NCBI GenBank assembly: GCA_002686215.1
Contig: NZAU01000163.1
Span: 1-7,460, forward strand
Direction: 5' to 3'
Source of the DNA: Candidatus Woesearchaeota archaeon
GTDB lineage: Archaea > Nanoarchaeota > Nanoarchaeia > UBA10117 > ARS21
DNA: 7,460 bases
In this document: positions 1 through 7,259 of the stretch, piece by piece
Position numbering within the stretch: the stretch's first letter is position 1
Layout: each line of letters begins with the position of its first letter
The notes under the pieces: model-generated
Seen by the model: only the letters and a program-made list of their open reading frames with translations
Database searches by the model: none
What the model was told of the DNA's origin: nothing
Made by a program: the position numbers and the translations under genes

Positions 1-571
1 CGTATTCGGAGTCGGGGTTGGCGGGGTATGCGGATTCTTCACGGCAATCGGGGTTGTCAGGATCAAGTTGGTTGTGCTCTGGATACATGCAAGCAGATCC
101 AGAATAGAAGATCTTAGTTGGTTGATCTAAACCAGGACGATTACACTCAGTATACTCCCTGGTCACACCATCAAAAGTTTCATTAAGTTTACGAACTTCC
201 TCAAGAACATTCAGGTTGATTGACACGGAGTTATGCATGATGTCTGCATCGTTCTCTCCAGTGAAAACGAAACCTGCACCACCCATATCAGCAGCGAACT
301 GATAGATCTCGTCAAAGGGGCGAACAAGACGATAAGGAACGTGATTGTAGAAGTTACCTTGTTCACCCTTAAACTGAATAACCCTTGCAACAAAATCTAC
401 ATCACGTAGATCTCCTTGCACAAATTCATTTGCTTCAGATTCAGAATACTCAGGATATTTGAGGTCTACACCACGAACCCAGTAACCTTCGGAACGTAGT
501 CGCTTAACCATGTGACTACCGATAAATCCACCAGCACCAAGCACCAATGCAGTTTTCTTGTATTCTCCCAT
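1..571 (-). CDS. NAD-dependent sugar-nucleotide epimerase (extended SDR), GDP-mannose 3,5-epimerase-like, C-terminus outside window
   Basis: The first 190 codons, read from ATG at 571, run off the window edge. A Rossmann fold is visible: GAGGFIG (12-18) is the GxxGxxG NAD site and VDL (35-37) carries the acidic residue after strand 2. AADMGG (93-98), SACMYPE (159-165) and the EESAYPANPDSEY stretch ending at residue 190 match plant GDP-mannose 3,5-epimerase (AADMGGMGF, SSACIYPE, ESDAWPAEPQDAYG). Cys161 falls on the epimerase's catalytic Cys and Tyr190 on the Tyr of YxxxK, so the catalytic Lys should lie just outside. Two insertions, about 64-88 and 129-152, are absent from the plant enzyme as I remember it. 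The family interconverts GDP-hexoses for surface glycans; here it might modify lipopolysaccharide or virion glycans (inference). A GDP-fucose synthase (WcaG) or other epimerase is possible. A sigma70-like promoter sits just upstream at 598-626; the Shine-Dalgarno is weak (GGA, 3 nt from ATG). Confidence 0.9.
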   Translation of the reverse strand, partial: MGEYKKTALVLGAGGFIGSHMVKRLRSEGYWVRGVDLKYPEYSESEANEFVQGDLRDVDFVARVIQFKGEQGNFYNHVPYRLVRPFDEIYQFAADMGGAGFVFTGENDADIMHNSVSINLNVLEEVRKLNETFDGVTREYTECNRPGLDQPTKIFYSGSACMYPEHNQLDPDNPDCREESAYPANPDSEY

Positions 572-597: not shown

Positions 598-626
598 ATT
601 ATACTAAAAAAGGGTGGTTTATGCAA
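598..626 (-). promoter_or_regulatory. Sigma70-like promoter of the epimerase gene, -35 inside a terminator loop
   Basis: On the minus strand a perfect -10 TATAAT (603-598) lies exactly 17 bases after TTGCAT (626-621). The -35 shares TTG and little else with TTGACA. The predicted start, near 591, gives a leader of about 20 nt to the ATG at 571. The -35 overlaps the loop and right arm of the terminator at 611-633, so the two signals share DNA. The -10 is convincing; the -35 is an inference from spacing. Confidence 0.6.
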
Positions 627-633
627 CCACCCT
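606..633 (-). terminator. Rho-independent terminator
   Basis: On the minus strand a perfect 9-bp stem AGGGTGGTT/AACCACCCT (633-625 with 619-611) encloses a 5-nt loop (624-620) and is followed by six U residues (611-606). This is a textbook intrinsic terminator. It ends the transcript that carries the two small genes at 1292-817 and the hairpin array, just before the epimerase gene. Confidence 0.88.
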
Positions 634-650
634 GTTAGGTCTTTTCATGC

Positions 651-810
651 ACGCCACTTGCTCTTTGTCCTGAAGCAAGAAACAGGGCGGGAGTTACCCC
701 ATCCGCACCACCTGCTTTTGAGAGAAGCAGGAAACTCTAAGAGGGTCTAATGACTCCACCACCTGATTTTACGAACCAGGAAACGCAGGGGTCGTTTACG
801 ACCATCCCGA
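651..810 (-). repeat. Array of tandem stem-loops (about 50-nt period) with compensatory base changes; probable structured RNA
   Basis: This gap between 817 and the terminator holds alternating hairpins and no convincing gene. Type B arms (plus strand): CTTGC/GCAAG (657-661/675-679), CCTGC/GCAGG (711-715/727-731) and CCTG/CAGG (762-765/777-780). Each is followed by AAAC (680, 732, 781), and the second and third are preceded by ACCA. The spacing is 54 and 51 nt. Type A hairpins lie between and beside them: 685-704, 743-756 (GGGTC/GACTC, one G-U pair) and 790-803 (GGTCG/CGACC). Arm sequences change in pairs between copies while the flanks stay constant, which suggests a selected RNA fold. On the minus transcript each unit reads GTTTC, hairpin B, GTGG, hairpin A. 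Flanking genes are all minus, so that strand is assumed. It may be a 3'-UTR element or a processed small RNA. The wcaG RNA motif of cyanophages is one candidate family, but I could not match its consensus. Confidence 0.62.
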
Positions 811-816
811 CCAGGG

Positions 817-1077
817 CTAGTTTTGAGACGATACCGAGTCTTTGATATAGCAGGGAACCCTTTCGGGATCCAACCATTTTGTGTATTCAAAATCATCAAT
901 GGCAGTCAGAAGTTGCATCTGATTGTCTAGAAGATACATGTCAGAGTAACGCTTGGTATACTCATTTGCTTTTTGAATACGATAGTCTGGCATACCATTG
1001 GTTTCCAATGTGCCACACTCAACATAACGATAGGGAAACCGCTCAAAAAGAACGGTTGGTTTTTTTGTTACCTTCAC
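817..1077 (-). CDS. Hypothetical protein, 86 aa
   Basis: I do not recognise this protein. It starts at GTG (1077), and its start codon overlaps the upstream stop (GTGA), so translation is probably coupled. A GAGG Shine-Dalgarno lies 7 nt before the GTG, inside the upstream gene. The product is soluble and charged, rich in Tyr and Asp, with no membrane segment or signal peptide. Visible blocks are RFPYRYVECG (13-22) and EYTKWLDPERVPCY (64-77). It is the second and last gene of a two-gene operon driven by the promoter at 1316-1344, and the hairpin array follows its stop directly. Coding is supported by overlap, SD and natural composition rather than by a family match. Confidence 0.75.
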   Translation of the reverse strand: MKVTKKPTVLFERFPYRYVECGTLETNGMPDYRIQKANEYTKRYSDMYLLDNQMQLLTAIDDFEYTKWLDPERVPCYIKDSVSSQN

Positions 1078-1684: not shown

Positions 1685-1768
1685 CTATTTTCTGTATCTA
1701 ATTGGCCAGGTTAGATCCATACCAATAATAAGCAATAAAATAAAAGCAAATACGAACAATACACTCAT
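1685..1768 (-). CDS. Tiny membrane peptide, 27 aa
   Basis: ATG at 1768 overlaps the zwf stop codon (ATGA), which suggests translational coupling. The peptide is one hydrophobic helix (residues 2-16, SVLFVFAFILLLIIG) followed by a basic end (RYRK). A GGGA stretch 9 nt upstream, inside zwf, could be a ribosome site. The function is unknown. The IIGM- and W-containing ends of this and the 42-aa peptide look loosely alike, so they may be distant relatives. It is too short to confirm by composition; the overlap with zwf is the best evidence. Confidence 0.55.
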   Translation of the reverse strand: MSVLFVFAFILLLIIGMDLTWPIRYRK

Positions 1769-3135
1769 GCTGGATAGTCCCAATCTGTTATACGGTCTAC
1801 TTTATGCCATGGTCCCCACGAACCAGGAGCATAGATATAAGGAACAGTACGTATGGGGCAAGAATCCCCAGTGCAAAGTAAATCATCGACAATCCTCCAG
1901 GATTCCATTACCTCATCGGCATGAACAAAATTTGATTGATTACCTTTGATGGCATCATAAAGAAGTTTTTCATATCCATCAATTGCCCTATCTTGTGGAT
2001 AGGCATGAGTAAGAGTAGCAAGTTCTAGATTATTATCAAGTCCAGGAGATTTAATCTCCATACGAATATCAAGGTGTGGATTTGGTTGCAACCTCATAAC
2101 GATTCGATCACCAGATTCACCATCATAAAGTTTTAGTGGTGGTGTTTTTAATTTAACAACAACTTCTACACACCCATAGGGCATGTTCTTACCAGTCATG
2201 ACGCGAAAAGGAACTCCCTCCCAACGCCAGTTATCACAGTAAAGAGTACCAGCAACAAAGGTAGGAGTGTGACTGTTAGGATCAACACCCTCTTCAGATT
2301 TGTATGTGTCATATTGTCCAAGGATCATGTCCTCCCCTAAACGAGTAGCAGCAAGAACTTTTGTTTTTTCTCTCCTGATTTCTTTTGCATCCATCTTACA
2401 TGGTGCTTCCATAGTAATCAGTGAATATACCTGCAAAATATGATTCTGCAGCATATCTCTAACGGCACCAGCAGTTTCATAATATTGTGAACGCCCATCA
2501 CAACTAATAGTTTCAGTTGCATAGATCTGAATTTCATCTATACAATTACGATTCCATAAAGGTTCCAACAAAATATTGCCAAACCGTGTAGCAAGAATAT
2601 TGTTAACAGTATCTTTGCCAAGATAATGGTCAATGCGATATACCTGTTTTTCGCGTAAATGTCGCTCCACCACAGACTGTAAATGATGAGCAGATTTATA
2701 ATCATGTCCAAAGGGTTTTTCGATAACCACCCTAGACCTTTCTGGGTCTTCGAGTAATCCTGCTTCTTTGAGATTGACGATAGCATTCTCATAGCGTTCT
2801 GGCGGTACGGATAGGAAGTAAGTATTATCCTCTAGATAATCTGGCAGATGTGACAGAGTATCTGGCATGGAAAGATCTGCACAAATATAATCAAGATGAT
2901 ATAAAAATTCTTCAGGATACTCACCCAAAGATTCTTTCCATTGTTGTACTGTTGGTTCTCTTCTAGCAGAACCAGTAATAACAAAATTTTCTGGAAGTAA
3001 ATCTTTCTTCCAGAGATTATAGAGTGCTGGAATTAGTTTCTTCTTACAAAGGTCTCCCGTTGCTCCGAAGATAACTATCCCGCTACTAGTGGGCGGTGCC
3101 GTTTCCGTCATAGTCTTCCGAGTCGTAATAGTCAT
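1765..3135 (-). CDS. zwf: Glucose-6-phosphate 1-dehydrogenase
   Basis: Oxidises glucose 6-phosphate to 6-phosphogluconolactone with NADP+, the entry step of the oxidative pentose phosphate pathway. Motifs in order (from the ATG at 3135): nucleotide-binding FGATGDL (23-29) with KKK; GSARR (55-59), where an Arg usually contacts NADP phosphate; EKPFGHD (139-145); the substrate signature RIDHYLGKD (167-175) with Asp169 and His170; DMLQNH (227-232), whose His232 is the expected catalytic base; and the C-terminal YIYAPGSWGP (433-442). At 456 aa it is complete but shorter than the roughly 490-510 aa usual in bacteria, mainly at the N-terminus. ATG 3135 is chosen because AAGG lies 6 nt upstream; ATG 3111 (MTETAPP) is possible. 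A GTG at 3207 is open but lies inside an upstream gene. Cyanophages carry zwf as an auxiliary metabolic gene, thought to supply NADPH and ribose for phage DNA synthesis. Confidence 0.97.
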   Translation of the reverse strand: MTITTRKTMTETAPPTSSGIVIFGATGDLCKKKLIPALYNLWKKDLLPENFVITGSARREPTVQQWKESLGEYPEEFLYHLDYICADLSMPDTLSHLPDYLEDNTYFLSVPPERYENAIVNLKEAGLLEDPERSRVVIEKPFGHDYKSAHHLQSVVERHLREKQVYRIDHYLGKDTVNNILATRFGNILLEPLWNRNCIDEIQIYATETISCDGRSQYYETAGAVRDMLQNHILQVYSLITMEAPCKMDAKEIRREKTKVLAATRLGEDMILGQYDTYKSEEGVDPNSHTPTFVAGTLYCDNWRWEGVPFRVMTGKNMPYGCVEVVVKLKTPPLKLYDGESGDRIVMRLQPNPHLDIRMEIKSPGLDNNLELATLTHAYPQDRAIDGYEKLLYDAIKGNQSNFVHADEVMESWRIVDDLLCTGDSCPIRTVPYIYAPGSWGPWHKVDRITDWDYPA

Positions 3136-3217
3136 TTTCACCCTTAAATCTTCCAAATGCGAGGGTGGCACATACAAAAGGCGCTGCTGCCCATAAAAGA
3201 AATTCACCTAAATTCAT
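3086..3217 (-). CDS. Small membrane-anchored acidic protein, 43 aa
   Basis: ATG 3217 overlaps the stop of the 54-aa gene (ATGA) and has AGGA 8 nt upstream (3229-3226). Residues 5-21 form a hydrophobic helix (EFLLWAAAPFVCATLAF); the tail is acidic and tyrosine-rich (GENDYYDSEDYDGNG). The TAG stop (3088-3086) lies about 50 nt inside zwf, so its tail and the zwf N-terminus share DNA in different frames. The function is unknown. The same pattern, one span plus an acidic tail, recurs in the 69-aa gene upstream. The good SD and coupled start make it a likely gene. Confidence 0.68.
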   Translation of the reverse strand: MNLGEFLLWAAAPFVCATLAFGRFKGENDYYDSEDYDGNGTAH

Positions 3218-4620: not shown

Positions 4621-6702
4621 TTAGGTTGGATAAGAGATAATAACGATACCAGGACCACCATTACCGCCAGAATTACCTGGTCCTGAGCTACCGCCAGGTC
4701 CTCTTTCGGATCCACCACCACCGCCGCCAGTGAATGCTTGTCCTGATTCACCTCTACGGAGTGGACCACTATTATTAGGACCGACACCACCCATTCCACC
4801 ACCACCAAGTCCACCTCTTGCTCTATAAGTAGATCCTTGGAACGGATGATTTCCTCCCAACCAAGAAGATCCACCGCCACCACCACCATACCAAGTAGAA
4901 GTTCCACTAATACTGAATTGTAAACCATTTCCACCAGCACCGGTATCACTATCTATTGGCGTACCACCAGGGAATCCATTTTGTCCGATACCACCACCGC
5001 CACCTCCAAAGGCATTAGGTCCTGGTGCATTATGTTGTCCAAAACCACCTGGTTGTCCAAATCCATTTACGAATGCACTATTGATTGCATAACCACCGGT
5101 CATATTAGAAGTACCACCAGTACCAGGAGTATTAGTCTCAGTACCACCACCTCCACCACATCCACCATTTAAGGCAGGAGTTGTTGGTCCGTGGTGTGCT
5201 CCACCACCGCCACCACCGTTTCCAGTAGCACCAAAAACACTAGTATTTCCACCAGTAAAACCTCTTGCACCATTACCTGGTGGGGATTCTCCACCAGTGC
5301 CACCACCACCAATAATGACTGGATATGAAGATGCAGAAACTGGGAATGCTTCGGAATAAAATGCGCCACCAGCACCGCCACCACCTGCGTGATAAGCACC
5401 ACCGCCACCACCGCCGCCAGCGATACCAAAGAATTCCACTGATGTCAGACTTGGATTAGTAACAGTGAATGAACCTGCTGAATGGAAAGTGTGAATTGTT
5501 TTTCCATTCACATAACTAATAATTCCACCAGTTGCTTTTGCAGTTGCAGTTTTTGCTATTTCATAACGAACAATTACAATACCAGAACCACCATTACCTC
5601 CTTTAACAACACCATAAGCAGGTGCATAATCTCCACCACCTCCACCAGCACCTAAAGCAGCAGCACCGTTACCACCACTTTGTGCTGCTCCATTAGATCC
5701 ATCTCCTCCACCACCAGGTCCACCAGTTCCACCAGTAACACTTTGAGGAGCGTGACCCGCGCCAGCACCTCCTCCCGCATAAGTTACTGATATGCCAGTA
5801 ATAGATGATGTTGCGCCAGGTCCACCATTTCCACTCGAAGTGCTAGCAGTTGCATCAACACCTACTCCACCTGCTCCACCGCCGCCACCTGCAGCATTGG
5901 TAGCACCAGCCCCACCATTATTTCCTTGTCCAGCAGTTCCAGCTCCCCCAGCATTTCCTTGACGCCCTGATCCACCACCAGATCCACCAGCAGCGCCGTC
6001 ACCAATTCCACCACGACCACCACCAGTAGAAGTAATAGTAGAAAATATACTATCACCACCACTCGTGCCATCATAAGGTCCGTTTGAATCTCCACCTTGA
6101 CCGCCACCACCAACTGTAACAGCGTAATCCTGGTTAGAAATAGGAAGACCAGAACCACTTCTCATACCACCAGCACCACCGCCGCCAGCACCTTGTCTGG
6201 AAGATCCAGCACCACCACCAGCAATTACCAGATAGTCAACTTCAGCATTGGGTGGTGCAGATTGTACATTAAAGGTAGAACTGCCAGTAAATACATGTAG
6301 TCTGTATGCAGTGCCACTTTCTTCATATTCTGAAATTGTTCCTCCGGTGGCACTAATACTAGTGTCTTGTGAAATATTACTCCAAGCATCATTCACATAA
6401 ACCTGAATAGAACCTATATCACTATTATAAATTAGAGTTCCAGCAGCAGTACTAACACCAGCATTACGTCCCGTTGTTGTAGTAGCACCTACACCAATAG
6501 AATTAGACTTGATAATGGTATCACCAACTGTAATGCTACTACCAGTACCAGCAACGGATTGATTCAGAGTAGTCGCAGTTATAACACCAGTCACATTCAG
6601 ACCAGTGATATCACCAGATAATCCACCGGTAAACGTTGCAGTACCAATAGAAACGTTACCGTTATTACCGTTTATTTCATCTACACGAAGTTTACTAGCC
6701 AT
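4621..6702 (-). CDS. Glycine-rich tail-fibre/adhesin protein, 693 aa
   Basis: The N-terminus (ASKLRVDEINGN) is a common opening of cyanophage tail-fibre proteins. Residues 13-115 are a Thr/Ser/Gly/Val beta-rich stem (TGLNVTGVITATTLN; IGSIQVYVNDAWSNI). Two glycine-rich modules follow, about 118-380 and 390-691. Each opens with ATGG-I-S then a strand ending F-T-G-SSTFNV or F-H-SAGSFTV, continues into V(D/E)-(Y/F) and AGGGxG, and closes with GIVIVRY or GIVIISY. Long glycine runs (GGGGGG) alternate with turn and aromatic residues. Such proteins in T-even phages (gp38-type adhesins) form glycine-rich bundles at the fibre tip with variable loops contacting the host receptor; that role is inferred here. 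A single Cys (515) is present. ATG 6702 has only a weak GGTGG ribosome site. The coding DNA is dominated by GGT/GGA codons, so false frames rich in Val and Leu arise. Confidence 0.88.
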   Translation of the reverse strand: MASKLRVDEINGNNGNVSIGTATFTGGLSGDITGLNVTGVITATTLNQSVAGTGSSITVGDTIIKSNSIGVGATTTTGRNAGVSTAAGTLIYNSDIGSIQVYVNDAWSNISQDTSISATGGTISEYEESGTAYRLHVFTGSSTFNVQSAPPNAEVDYLVIAGGGAGSSRQGAGGGGAGGMRSGSGLPISNQDYAVTVGGGGQGGDSNGPYDGTSGGDSIFSTITSTGGGRGGIGDGAAGGSGGGSGRQGNAGGAGTAGQGNNGGAGATNAAGGGGGAGGVGVDATASTSSGNGGPGATSSITGISVTYAGGGAGAGHAPQSVTGGTGGPGGGGDGSNGAAQSGGNGAAALGAGGGGGDYAPAYGVVKGGNGGSGIVIVRYEIAKTATAKATGGIISYVNGKTIHTFHSAGSFTVTNPSLTSVEFFGIAGGGGGGGAYHAGGGGAGGAFYSEAFPVSASSYPVIIGGGGTGGESPPGNGARGFTGGNTSVFGATGNGGGGGGAHHGPTTPALNGGCGGGGGTETNTPGTGGTSNMTGGYAINSAFVNGFGQPGGFGQHNAPGPNAFGGGGGGIGQNGFPGGTPIDSDTGAGGNGLQFSISGTSTWYGGGGGGSSWLGGNHPFQGSTYRARGGLGGGGMGGVGPNNSGPLRRGESGQAFTGGGGGGSERGPGGSSGPGNSGGNGGPGIVIISYPT
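4630..5535 (-). repeat. Second glycine-rich module of the adhesin
   Basis: Codes for residues 390-691, a diverged copy of the first module. Shared landmarks are the ATGG-I-S opening, the H-TF-x-SAGSFTV strand, the GGGGAGG run after it and the GGNGGPGIVI closing. It is about 300 residues, with more His and aromatic residues (GAYHAG, AHHGP, WYGGGG, SSWLGG) than module one. Confidence 0.7.
5563..6351 (-). repeat. First glycine-rich module of the adhesin
   Basis: Codes for residues 118-380. It opens with ATGGTISEYEE, runs through HVFTGSSTFNV, VDYLVIAGGGAG and GGGGAGG, and closes with GGNGGSGIVIVRY. It is Ser/Thr/Ala/Gly-dominated and aromatic-poor compared with module two, as if the second copy carries the variable binding surface. 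Confidence 0.7.
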
Positions 6703-6718: not shown

Positions 6719-6725
6719 ATATTTA
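6719..6725 (-). promoter_or_regulatory. Possible T4-like late promoter element
   Basis: CTAAATA on the minus strand (6725-6719) resembles the T4 late box TATAAATA. It lies over the stop of the 178-aa gene, about 17 nt before the adhesin ATG. It is the only match noticed in the window, but it is short and AT-rich, so chance is possible. Confidence 0.25.
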
Positions 6726-7259
6726 GCCAGAGATTTCCATTAGAACTATACTGCTTGATCCATTGTATCCACCAGGACCACGATTATAATACCCAGTACT
6801 ATCATGAACACCCCAAAGAACACCATATGTTACTGATGATGTTGTTCCTGGACTATCAACACCAAAATGGGATGTAGTTTGTCCATTTAAACCAGTATAC
6901 CCCTGCGATAAAAATAATTTAGAAACACCAGTAGAATTGTTACCTGGATTTAGACTAGATGCTACTCCAGAATTGGCAAAATATACAGGAGTTCCAGCAG
7001 GGTCACGAGCAAATATGATAGATCCAGTAGAAGAACCACTCATTTCTAAATGCATCGTAACCATCATCAGTATTTTATTGGATGCTGATGTTGGTGTTAT
7101 TGAAATATTTAAACCATCTACACCAGAATTTGTCCAAGAAGTTGATGTGGTAGTATTTGTGGTAGAGTCAATTTTTTCTACGATCTGAATAATACCACCA
7201 CTCGCACCAGCAGGCAGTCCGTCTCTTGGATAGATTTTATTTGTTCTTAATTCTGACAT
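6723..7259 (-). CDS. Tail-fibre-type structural protein, 178 aa
   Basis: The opening SELRTNKIYPRDGLPAGASGG (written here as SELRTNKIYPRDGLP then AGASGG) is a familiar N-terminus of cyanophage tail-fibre or virion proteins. The rest is a Thr/Ser/Gly/Asn-rich beta protein with repeated strand-turn patterns (SWTNSGVDGLNISITPTSAS, KILMMVTMHLEM) and ends in SSIVLMEISG. No signal peptide or enzyme motif is visible. Its ATG at 7259 shares one base with the stop of the preceding gene (TAATG), and GAGG lies 10 nt upstream. The C-terminal -(I/F)xLxE(I/V)S(G/A) pattern also ends the preceding protein, so the two may be related C-terminal domains. A role in the fibre or baseplate periphery is inferred from composition and neighbours. 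Confidence 0.8.
   Translation of the reverse strand: MSELRTNKIYPRDGLPAGASGGIIQIVEKIDSTTNTTTSTSWTNSGVDGLNISITPTSASNKILMMVTMHLEMSGSSTGSIIFARDPAGTPVYFANSGVASSLNPGNNSTGVSKLFLSQGYTGLNGQTTSHFGVDSPGTTSSVTYGVLWGVHDSTGYYNRGPGGYNGSSSIVLMEISG

Follow-up and report, generated by a model that had tools for sequence, protein, structure and literature searches.

The locus and its genes

The window analysed here, a stretch of 7,460 nucleotides, is T4-like cyanophage DNA: sequence similar to its positions 560-900 occurs in 159 phage records, all named Synechococcus phage or Cyanophage, and its gene content includes a glucose-6-phosphate dehydrogenase and a nucleotide-sugar epimerase. On the minus strand, which is the RNA strand, positions 841-638 are taken up by four units in tandem, named F, m, W and T here. 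Each is about 50 nt long and is made of an H-type pseudoknot with a short hairpin or tail behind it, and the unit spans are 841-788 (F), 786-743 (m), 738-686 (W) and 686-638 (T). The order along the minus strand is 86-aa gene, F, m, W, T, terminator, promoter-like pair and epimerase. An earlier sequence-only reading of this DNA had placed a hairpin array after a small-gene operon, upstream of a terminator and ending short of the epimerase promoter, an order that the sequence bears out. In the features listed below, S2 is the inner stem of a pseudoknot and S1 the second stem, which crosses S2; percentages give the alignment cells that are paired in 24 relatives' arrays of the window's kind, or in 84 relatives where stated.

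817-1077, minus strand: upstream gene, 86 aa, phrog_481, a family with no assigned function
814-841, minus strand: unit F pseudoknot, S1 AGAC/GTCT (95.8%), S2 GGTA/TA(G)CC (95.5%), both with double changes; shares sequence with the final codons and stop of the 86-aa ORF
788-813, minus strand: unit F TGG and hairpin (four outer pairs 74.4%, inner pair 50%)
762-786, minus strand: unit m pseudoknot, S1 GCG/CGT (80.6%), S2 CCTGGTT/AATCAGG (76.2%, a value lowered by the mix of two m subtypes in the alignment)
743-761, minus strand: unit m TGG and hairpin GTC/GAC with a bulged A; its pairs are invariant in the 24 arrays and thus give no covariation evidence
711-738, minus strand: unit W pseudoknot (5' half of wcaG), S1 AGAG/CTCT (79.5%), S2 CCTGCTT/AAGCAGG (95.2%)
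686-710, minus strand: unit W TGG and hairpin, nearly invariant, in part because the search pattern imposes it; its last base (position 686) is shared with S1 of unit T
657-686, minus strand: unit T pseudoknot (3' half of wcaG), S1 CCTG/CAGG (98.8% in 84 relatives, 91.7% in the 24 arrays), S2 CTTGCT/AGCAAG
638-656, minus strand: conserved tail of unit T, beginning TGGCGTGCATG
606-633, minus strand: intrinsic terminator about 23 nt behind the last pseudoknot, with a 9-bp stem (93.8%), loop GCATA and a T-run
621-626, minus strand: -35 box TTGCAT within the terminator hairpin (arm and loop)
598-603, minus strand: -10 box TATAAT, 17 nt behind the -35 box
2-571, minus strand: downstream gene, an NAD-dependent nucleotide-sugar epimerase, start at 571, truncated by the window edge

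The three type-B hairpins of the sequence-only reading, with their paired arm changes, are present at spacings of 54 and 51 nt. They stand as the S2 stems but are not plain hairpins, being crossed by S1 stems such as CCTG/CAGG to form H-type pseudoknots. Its type-A hairpins correspond to the hairpins of units W (685-704), m (743-756) and F (790-803). A fragment at 819-833 that it took for a decayed copy is in fact a piece of the intact F pseudoknot, which belongs to another subtype, and the extent it gave, 651-810, was too short, as the array runs from 841 to 638 and is followed by the terminator at 633-606.

The codons for KDSVSSQN and the stop of the 86-aa protein (841-817, minus strand) double as the F pseudoknot. 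Like protein ends are found in our loci L015, L017 and L113, and this recurring end is perhaps held by the RNA. Elsewhere on the minus strand, a tRNA-Pro (TGG) at 1369-1442 lies upstream of two small genes, and the glucose-6-phosphate dehydrogenase ORF spans 1765-3207; its listed start is a GTG within a small ORF at 3086-3217, and the true start may be further in. A glycine-rich-domain protein (4621-6702) and a protein that is weakly tail-fibre-like (6723-7259), also on the minus strand, are presumably virion fibre components.

The array core is wcaG RNA

The sequence-only reading had called the array a candidate for an undescribed structured RNA, possibly related to wcaG, and had proposed a search with Rfam models, giving RF01761 as the accession. 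The accession was right, and the search matched units W and T to wcaG RNA (739-643, minus strand, 99.7 bits, E = 7.4e-19, model positions 1-98), above the gathering score of 42. The suspected relation therefore holds but was understated, W and T together being a strong member of the family, and the array core had already been described (Weinberg et al. 2010, PMC2864571, as far as its text could be consulted). A wholly undescribed RNA is accordingly ruled out. Units F and m gave a second wcaG match (843-748, minus strand, 37.6 bits, E = 0.00023) that lies under the gathering score, and the F and m units of relatives scored 48.4 (L049), 49.6 (L229), 42.9 (L256) and 30.6 (L024) with the same model. 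At L229 (3539-3749) and L256 (12384-12583, minus strand) wcaG matched twice in tandem, each time above the gathering score. We also considered manA RNA as the identity of F and m and rejected it, as there was no manA match in the loci scanned. A covariance model that we built on W and T did not report the window's F and m units at E values up to 0.5, so these two units were tracked by pattern and stem searches. STAXI (RF01728) was absent among the window's Rfam matches at E values up to 5.

The wcaG model matched once in each of five phages scanned. Among further genomes it scored 78.6 in L133 and 90.4 in L135, both above the cut-off, only 22.3 in L131, and gave no score in L132. A host element seems unlikely: a search for the wcaG pattern in genome contigs yielded 5 stretches, none of them in a record with a cyanobacterial title.

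Pseudoknot structure in relatives

Alignments of relatives favour the covarying tandem array proposed in the sequence-only reading. Across 24 arrays with the window's unit order (FmWT), the proposed structure was paired in 89.5% of 1,410 cells and 38 of its 62 pairs were changed on both sides. None of 500 shuffles reached the observed percentage paired, number of double-changed pairs, number of double-changed cells or covariation score, while 73 of 500 reached the number of pair types, the fifth measure; these shuffles ignore kinship, and the contigs are related rather than independent. The alignment holds 24 of the 25 FmWT arrays (L051, a copy of L030, was dropped). Its structure was taken from the row of the window itself, an advantage over the slid controls.

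A broader alignment of 84 relatives was picked by hand from 112 loci among the matches listed and omits 28, which comprise near-duplicates and many divergent 5' domains. Here both-side changes (exchanges among U-A, C-G and A-U) were found at 2 of the 4 pairs of the T unit's S1. Of 500 shuffles, 153 reached this alignment's 17 double-changed pairs and 0 to 2 reached each of the other four measures. S1 of unit W was paired in only 68.2% of cells, partly through misalignment, and conservation within W and within T's GTTTC is in part a product of the letters of the search pattern. G.U cells outnumbered A.C cells by 210 to 51 over all pairs and by 14 to 4 in the three best-aligned helices, as expected of an RNA made from the minus strand.

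Among the matches listed, a scan of single units for mismatch-free two-stem pseudoknots found them in 127 of 128 T units, 11 of 12 n units (n being a fifth kind of unit), 117 of 164 W, 34 of 121 m and 0 of 112 F, against 0 to 1.3% of shuffles. F units belong to a different, bulged subtype. A stem test made for them found S1 in all 112 among the matches listed versus 17% of shuffles, and 1.6% of shuffles scored as high as the median or higher. In S2 of F, the first N pair was Watson-Crick in 78 of these 112 units and not in the other 34. The m and F subtype GTCACGGATGGAC showed no convincing second stem. When S1 partners were permuted among units having TTT and an S2 of at least 5 bp (127 of 132 T, 53 of 122 m, 141 of 167 W and 13 of 14 n), S1 was present in fractions of 0.937 for T (permuted mean 0.625, highest 0.701), 0.528 for m (0.22, 0.358), 0.936 for W (0.75, 0.809) and 0.923 for n (0.857, 0.923). 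The n value is no higher than the best permutation, so n adds no evidence. For the wcaG 5' domain, 72 of 109 unique sequences among the matches listed reached the 99th percentile of shuffled controls. Single-letter shuffles served as controls for the 5'-domain, pseudoknot and F-stem tests and, below, for the strict-unit, arm-complementarity, tRNA-locus and both terminator tests. We consider the structure of the array strongly supported and its anatomy well supported.

Modular composition of the arrays

Tail patterns for the five kinds of unit (F, m, W, n and T) were used to chain units over 232 sources. The scans with the wcaG and F patterns gave at least 120 loci each, and all counts describe these matches rather than prevalence. 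Among the matches listed there were 225 unique chains of at least two units: WT (45), mWT (41), FmWT (25), mFWT (24), FWT (23), Fm (22), FWnT (10), mFT (7), mF (6), mW (5) and rarer kinds. T was the last unit in 185 of the 189 chains that hold it (among the matches listed), and the median spacing from unit to unit was 49-55 nt for the common pairs and 64.5 nt from n to T. The order is not absolute, for in S-H35 a T unit with its hairpin precedes m, F and W.

A stricter scan for units at 120 loci (among the matches listed, chance matches included) found 0, 1, 2, 3 and 4 units in 1, 32, 63, 21 and 3 loci, respectively. Loci found by the F pattern alone led to both W and T in 48 of 75 unique cases with 300 nt downstream (among the matches listed), to T only in 9, to W only in 2 and to neither in 16, and 6 further loci were too short for this test. 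On inspection of eight of the 16, four proved to be F and m followed by a gene, and three had an early T that the coarse test had overlooked. In Bellamy, S-SM2 and SynMITS9220M01 the array is split, F and m being followed by a small gene and then by W and T. Split arrays with a small gene inside were seen at L122 (4188-4388), L123 (4187-4375) and L125 (3802-4008). One array was found in each of two whole phages scanned, with a few isolated single-unit matches elsewhere. A genome-wide repeat was thus rejected, since the exact m-tail pattern occurred once in each of 5 phages and one unit chain in each of the 2 whole genomes.

Terminators, promoters and neighbouring genes

Among the matches listed, 185 arrays end in T, of which 180 had enough downstream sequence for a terminator test. 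A hairpin with at least 4 T in 8 followed 142 of these 180, versus 5 in shuffled sequence, and began 19-23 nt (quartiles) past the last TGG. A looser rule found a hairpin and T-run in 104 of 112 loci among the matches listed versus 39.0 in shuffles, a control so high that we rely on the stricter test. A terminator together with a TATAAT-like box (at least five of six positions) was present at 108 loci among the matches listed, and in 93 of them a -35 box starting with TT lay 16-18 nt before that box. The spacing was exactly 17 nt in 88 of the 93, and all 93 boxes begin inside the hairpin. A control box placed 5 nt further upstream was found in 2 of 108. The window's own -35 box, TTGCAT, was identical in 52 of the 108 (among the matches listed). 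Terminator and promoter were observed to share DNA in the window (633-598, minus strand), the -35 box lying in the hairpin and TATAAT past the T-run. Away from arrays, this tight terminator-promoter pattern occurred at 3 places in 5 phage genomes, versus 1 for a reversed control pattern.

In the non-tRNA loci with a hairpin, a TATAAT-like box lay between array and gene in 112 of 132 and the T-run was at least 5 in 130 of 132 (among the matches listed). The next start codon was a median of 82 nt (quartiles 78-87) past the last pseudoknot in the 100 of 120 loci that gave a gene (among the matches listed). Upstream, a same-strand ORF of at least 35 aa ended no more than 150 nt before the W core in 112 of 120 loci among the matches listed, a count without a control. 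Since most loci seen have a terminator and then a separate promoter, the RNA would close the upstream transcript and the downstream gene would have a promoter of its own. Judged from sequence, the array RNA is thus probably, in the usual case, the 3' end of the upstream transcript and not a leader of the sugar gene. Among the matches listed, 15 of 147 non-tRNA arrays had no hairpin. Several of these run nearly straight into a start codon, for example of genes read from sequence as 2OG-Fe oxygenase-like or cupin-like.

A same-strand tRNA followed 27 of the 185 T-ended arrays (among the matches listed); it was tRNA-Gly in 22 and lay at +36 to +44 in 26. In 25 unique loci of this kind, with the tRNA itself excluded, a hairpin preceded the tRNA in all 25, versus 7.1 expected from shuffles. 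The T-run was at least 5 in only 2 (L104 and L245, which are alike) and shorter in 23, some with 3 or 4 T, and TATAAT occurred between array and tRNA in 1 of 25. The other 24, having no TATAAT, suggest that the tRNA is read from upstream. In L104, L034, L048, L076, L272 and L275 the array and hairpin were observed to abut the tRNA, mostly tRNA-Gly, with a recurrent TGACC-type loop.

The genes behind the arrays vary widely. Among the matches listed, 44 of 100 were nucleotide-sugar epimerases (phrog_540) and 15 of 100 cytidylyltransferase-like, the remainder being oxygenases, glycosyltransferases, carbamoyltransferases and others. The upstream ORFs, 106 of 112 after six were removed by hand, belonged to phrog_2318 in 32 and phrog_481 in 27 (among the matches listed), both of them families with no assigned function. 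A simple gene caller applied to 120 loci among the matches listed placed the upstream neighbour on the same strand in 111, on the opposite strand in 6 and found none in 3, and the downstream neighbour in 104, 10 and 6, respectively; at L125 the annotation has a same-strand gene where the caller put an opposite-strand one. In Sf-CH11, S-RIM2, S-H35 and S-RSM4 the array lies between the talC region and hli, psbA or tRNA genes.

Possible function of the array

The explanation we favour, at somewhat less than even confidence and from position and structure as read from sequence, is that the array is a modular 3'-UTR RNA that would serve as a 3'-end cap and as an insulator between gene blocks. It follows the upstream gene directly, its first unit starting within the last codons, and is succeeded by a terminator and then by a separate sigma-70-type promoter. 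Its compact pseudoknots have a U-rich first loop and an A-rich third loop, which we take to be the geometry of triplex-stabilised pseudoknots. They could act as a cap that slows 3'-to-5' exonucleases, which would give the upstream transcript a defined and long-lived 3' end and set apart the stability and expression of the two adjoining gene blocks. Where a tRNA stands in place of the promoter, RNase P cutting would supply the defined 3' end. REP-type intercistronic stabilisers are likewise structured repeats between genes and are proposed to protect upstream mRNA, but they are palindromes whereas the units here are pseudoknots, and the array occurs once per genome in the two whole phages scanned.

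Several observations count against such a cap. A single array per phage (in the two whole phages, with wcaG once in each of five) is unlike a general stabiliser used genome-wide, and arrays abutting start codons have no 3' end in view. Loop conservation looks greater than a mere roadblock would need, though the search pattern imposes part of it. With 44 of 100 downstream genes in the epimerase family, regulation of the downstream gene would fit equally well. The array might then be a metabolite-sensing riboswitch or another 5'-leader regulator of the downstream sugar genes, in which a ligand bound by the pseudoknots sets termination or translation. We regard this as unlikely, though it is the most probable of the alternatives. 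It agrees with the consulted text of Weinberg et al. 2010 (PMC2864571), where wcaG, found near exopolysaccharide and high-light genes, counts as a probable riboswitch. It also agrees with the epimerase and cytidylyltransferase-like genes downstream and with the short distance from the end of the array to a terminator (about 20 nt) or, at some loci, to a start codon (12-45 nt). The TATAAT-like box between array and gene (112 of 132) argues against it, as does the lack of a clear alternative pairing of the terminator arms with the array in 138 loci: the mean best complementarity was 14.45 versus 13.77 for shuffled arms, with p no greater than 0.05 in 9.4% of the loci. With so slight an excess, classical attenuator pairing seems unlikely. 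In the window, the terminator at 633-606 and the -35/-10 pair separate the array from the epimerase, which does not fit the proposed 5'-UTR placement.

Structured nascent RNA upstream of terminators is also a feature of the put and EAR antitermination RNAs, and by analogy the nascent array might load onto RNA polymerase and carry it past the terminator into sugar or tRNA genes. The constant position directly upstream of the terminator would suit this, as would the 24 of 25 tRNA loci read from upstream, with L104 and L245 retaining a full T-run. The remaining tRNA loci (23 of 25), where read-through is needed, have mostly lost the T-run that 130 of 132 other loci keep, a loss that an antiterminator would not need, and we therefore think antitermination improbable. 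Slightly less probable again is a trans-acting RNA derived from the 3' UTR, in which the array, once terminated, would be released from the mRNA by cutting and would, for example, bind a host protein or act as a sponge. The discrete terminated module, its single occurrence in each of the two whole phages and the same TGG beside each pseudoknot (a TGG that is also part of the unit search pattern) speak for such an RNA, but arrays that abut start codons would yield no free RNA. We give the lowest probability to a DNA-level boundary for the exchange of gene cassettes, with RNA structure as a secondary matter. The small genes inside split arrays and the highly variable genes behind the array would fit a boundary, while the compensatory changes and the excess of G.U over A.C argue for an RNA read from one strand.

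In a broader proposal, which we hold with a little less confidence than the cap itself, wcaG RNA might be no riboswitch but the closing module of a bacterial 3'-UTR element of a new kind. In such an element 2-5 pseudoknot-hairpin units would cap and protect phage transcripts, while the terminator hairpin would contain the promoter of the following operon, or the units would be released as a stable phage RNA. The array predicts a 3' end near 606, protections at the pseudoknots, a transcription start behind the TATAAT and altered decay of the upstream mRNA.

Relation to published descriptions

In the parts of Weinberg et al. 2010 (PMC2864571) available to us, wcaG, known from marine sequences and cyanophages, is said to be an RNA for certain and, with probability, both cis-regulatory and a riboswitch, the genes near it being for exopolysaccharides or induced by high light. 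That gene context recurs here, with the epimerase behind the array and hli genes near it in Sf-CH11, S-RIM2 and S-H35. The window's W and T units match the motif, in a cyanophage and with a sugar-nucleotide gene behind; the difference is that wcaG here is the 3' part of a four-unit array with a terminator and a promoter behind it, and so is not a simple 5' UTR. Because it stands before a transcription stop in the window and in most relatives seen, the idea of a simple gene switch needs to be retested, and if the upstream transcript usually ends with wcaG, looking for a ligand by which it controls the downstream gene may be misdirected. The same source, in the text seen, calls structured 3'-UTR elements in bacteria "highly unusual"; the array would add a phage case to these, in phages that carry host-type metabolic genes. 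The STAXI motif (RF01728), as described in that text, is likewise a pseudoknot in two or three tandem copies, but it belongs to Enterobacteriales rather than cyanophages, and the units in the window add a hairpin and have a terminator behind them.

Later cyanophage papers restate the 2010 description in the passages seen (PMC9964418, PMC9602691, PMC10665884), and it went unmentioned in passages of an S-PM2 expression study (PMC5931967) and of a 2010 genome comparison (PMC3037559). The literature listings and passages searched held nothing on a wcaG array, a pseudoknot or a 3'-end position, and reported no wcaG ligand. The pseudoknots may already be drawn in the published wcaG figure, while searchable texts appear not to describe the larger array, the grammar of its units or the 3'-end position it usually has. 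An abiF RNA has been reported in S-CREM1 (PMC9964418, in the passages seen), and we observed an abiF match at L022 (13624-13660) on a contig that also carries an array.
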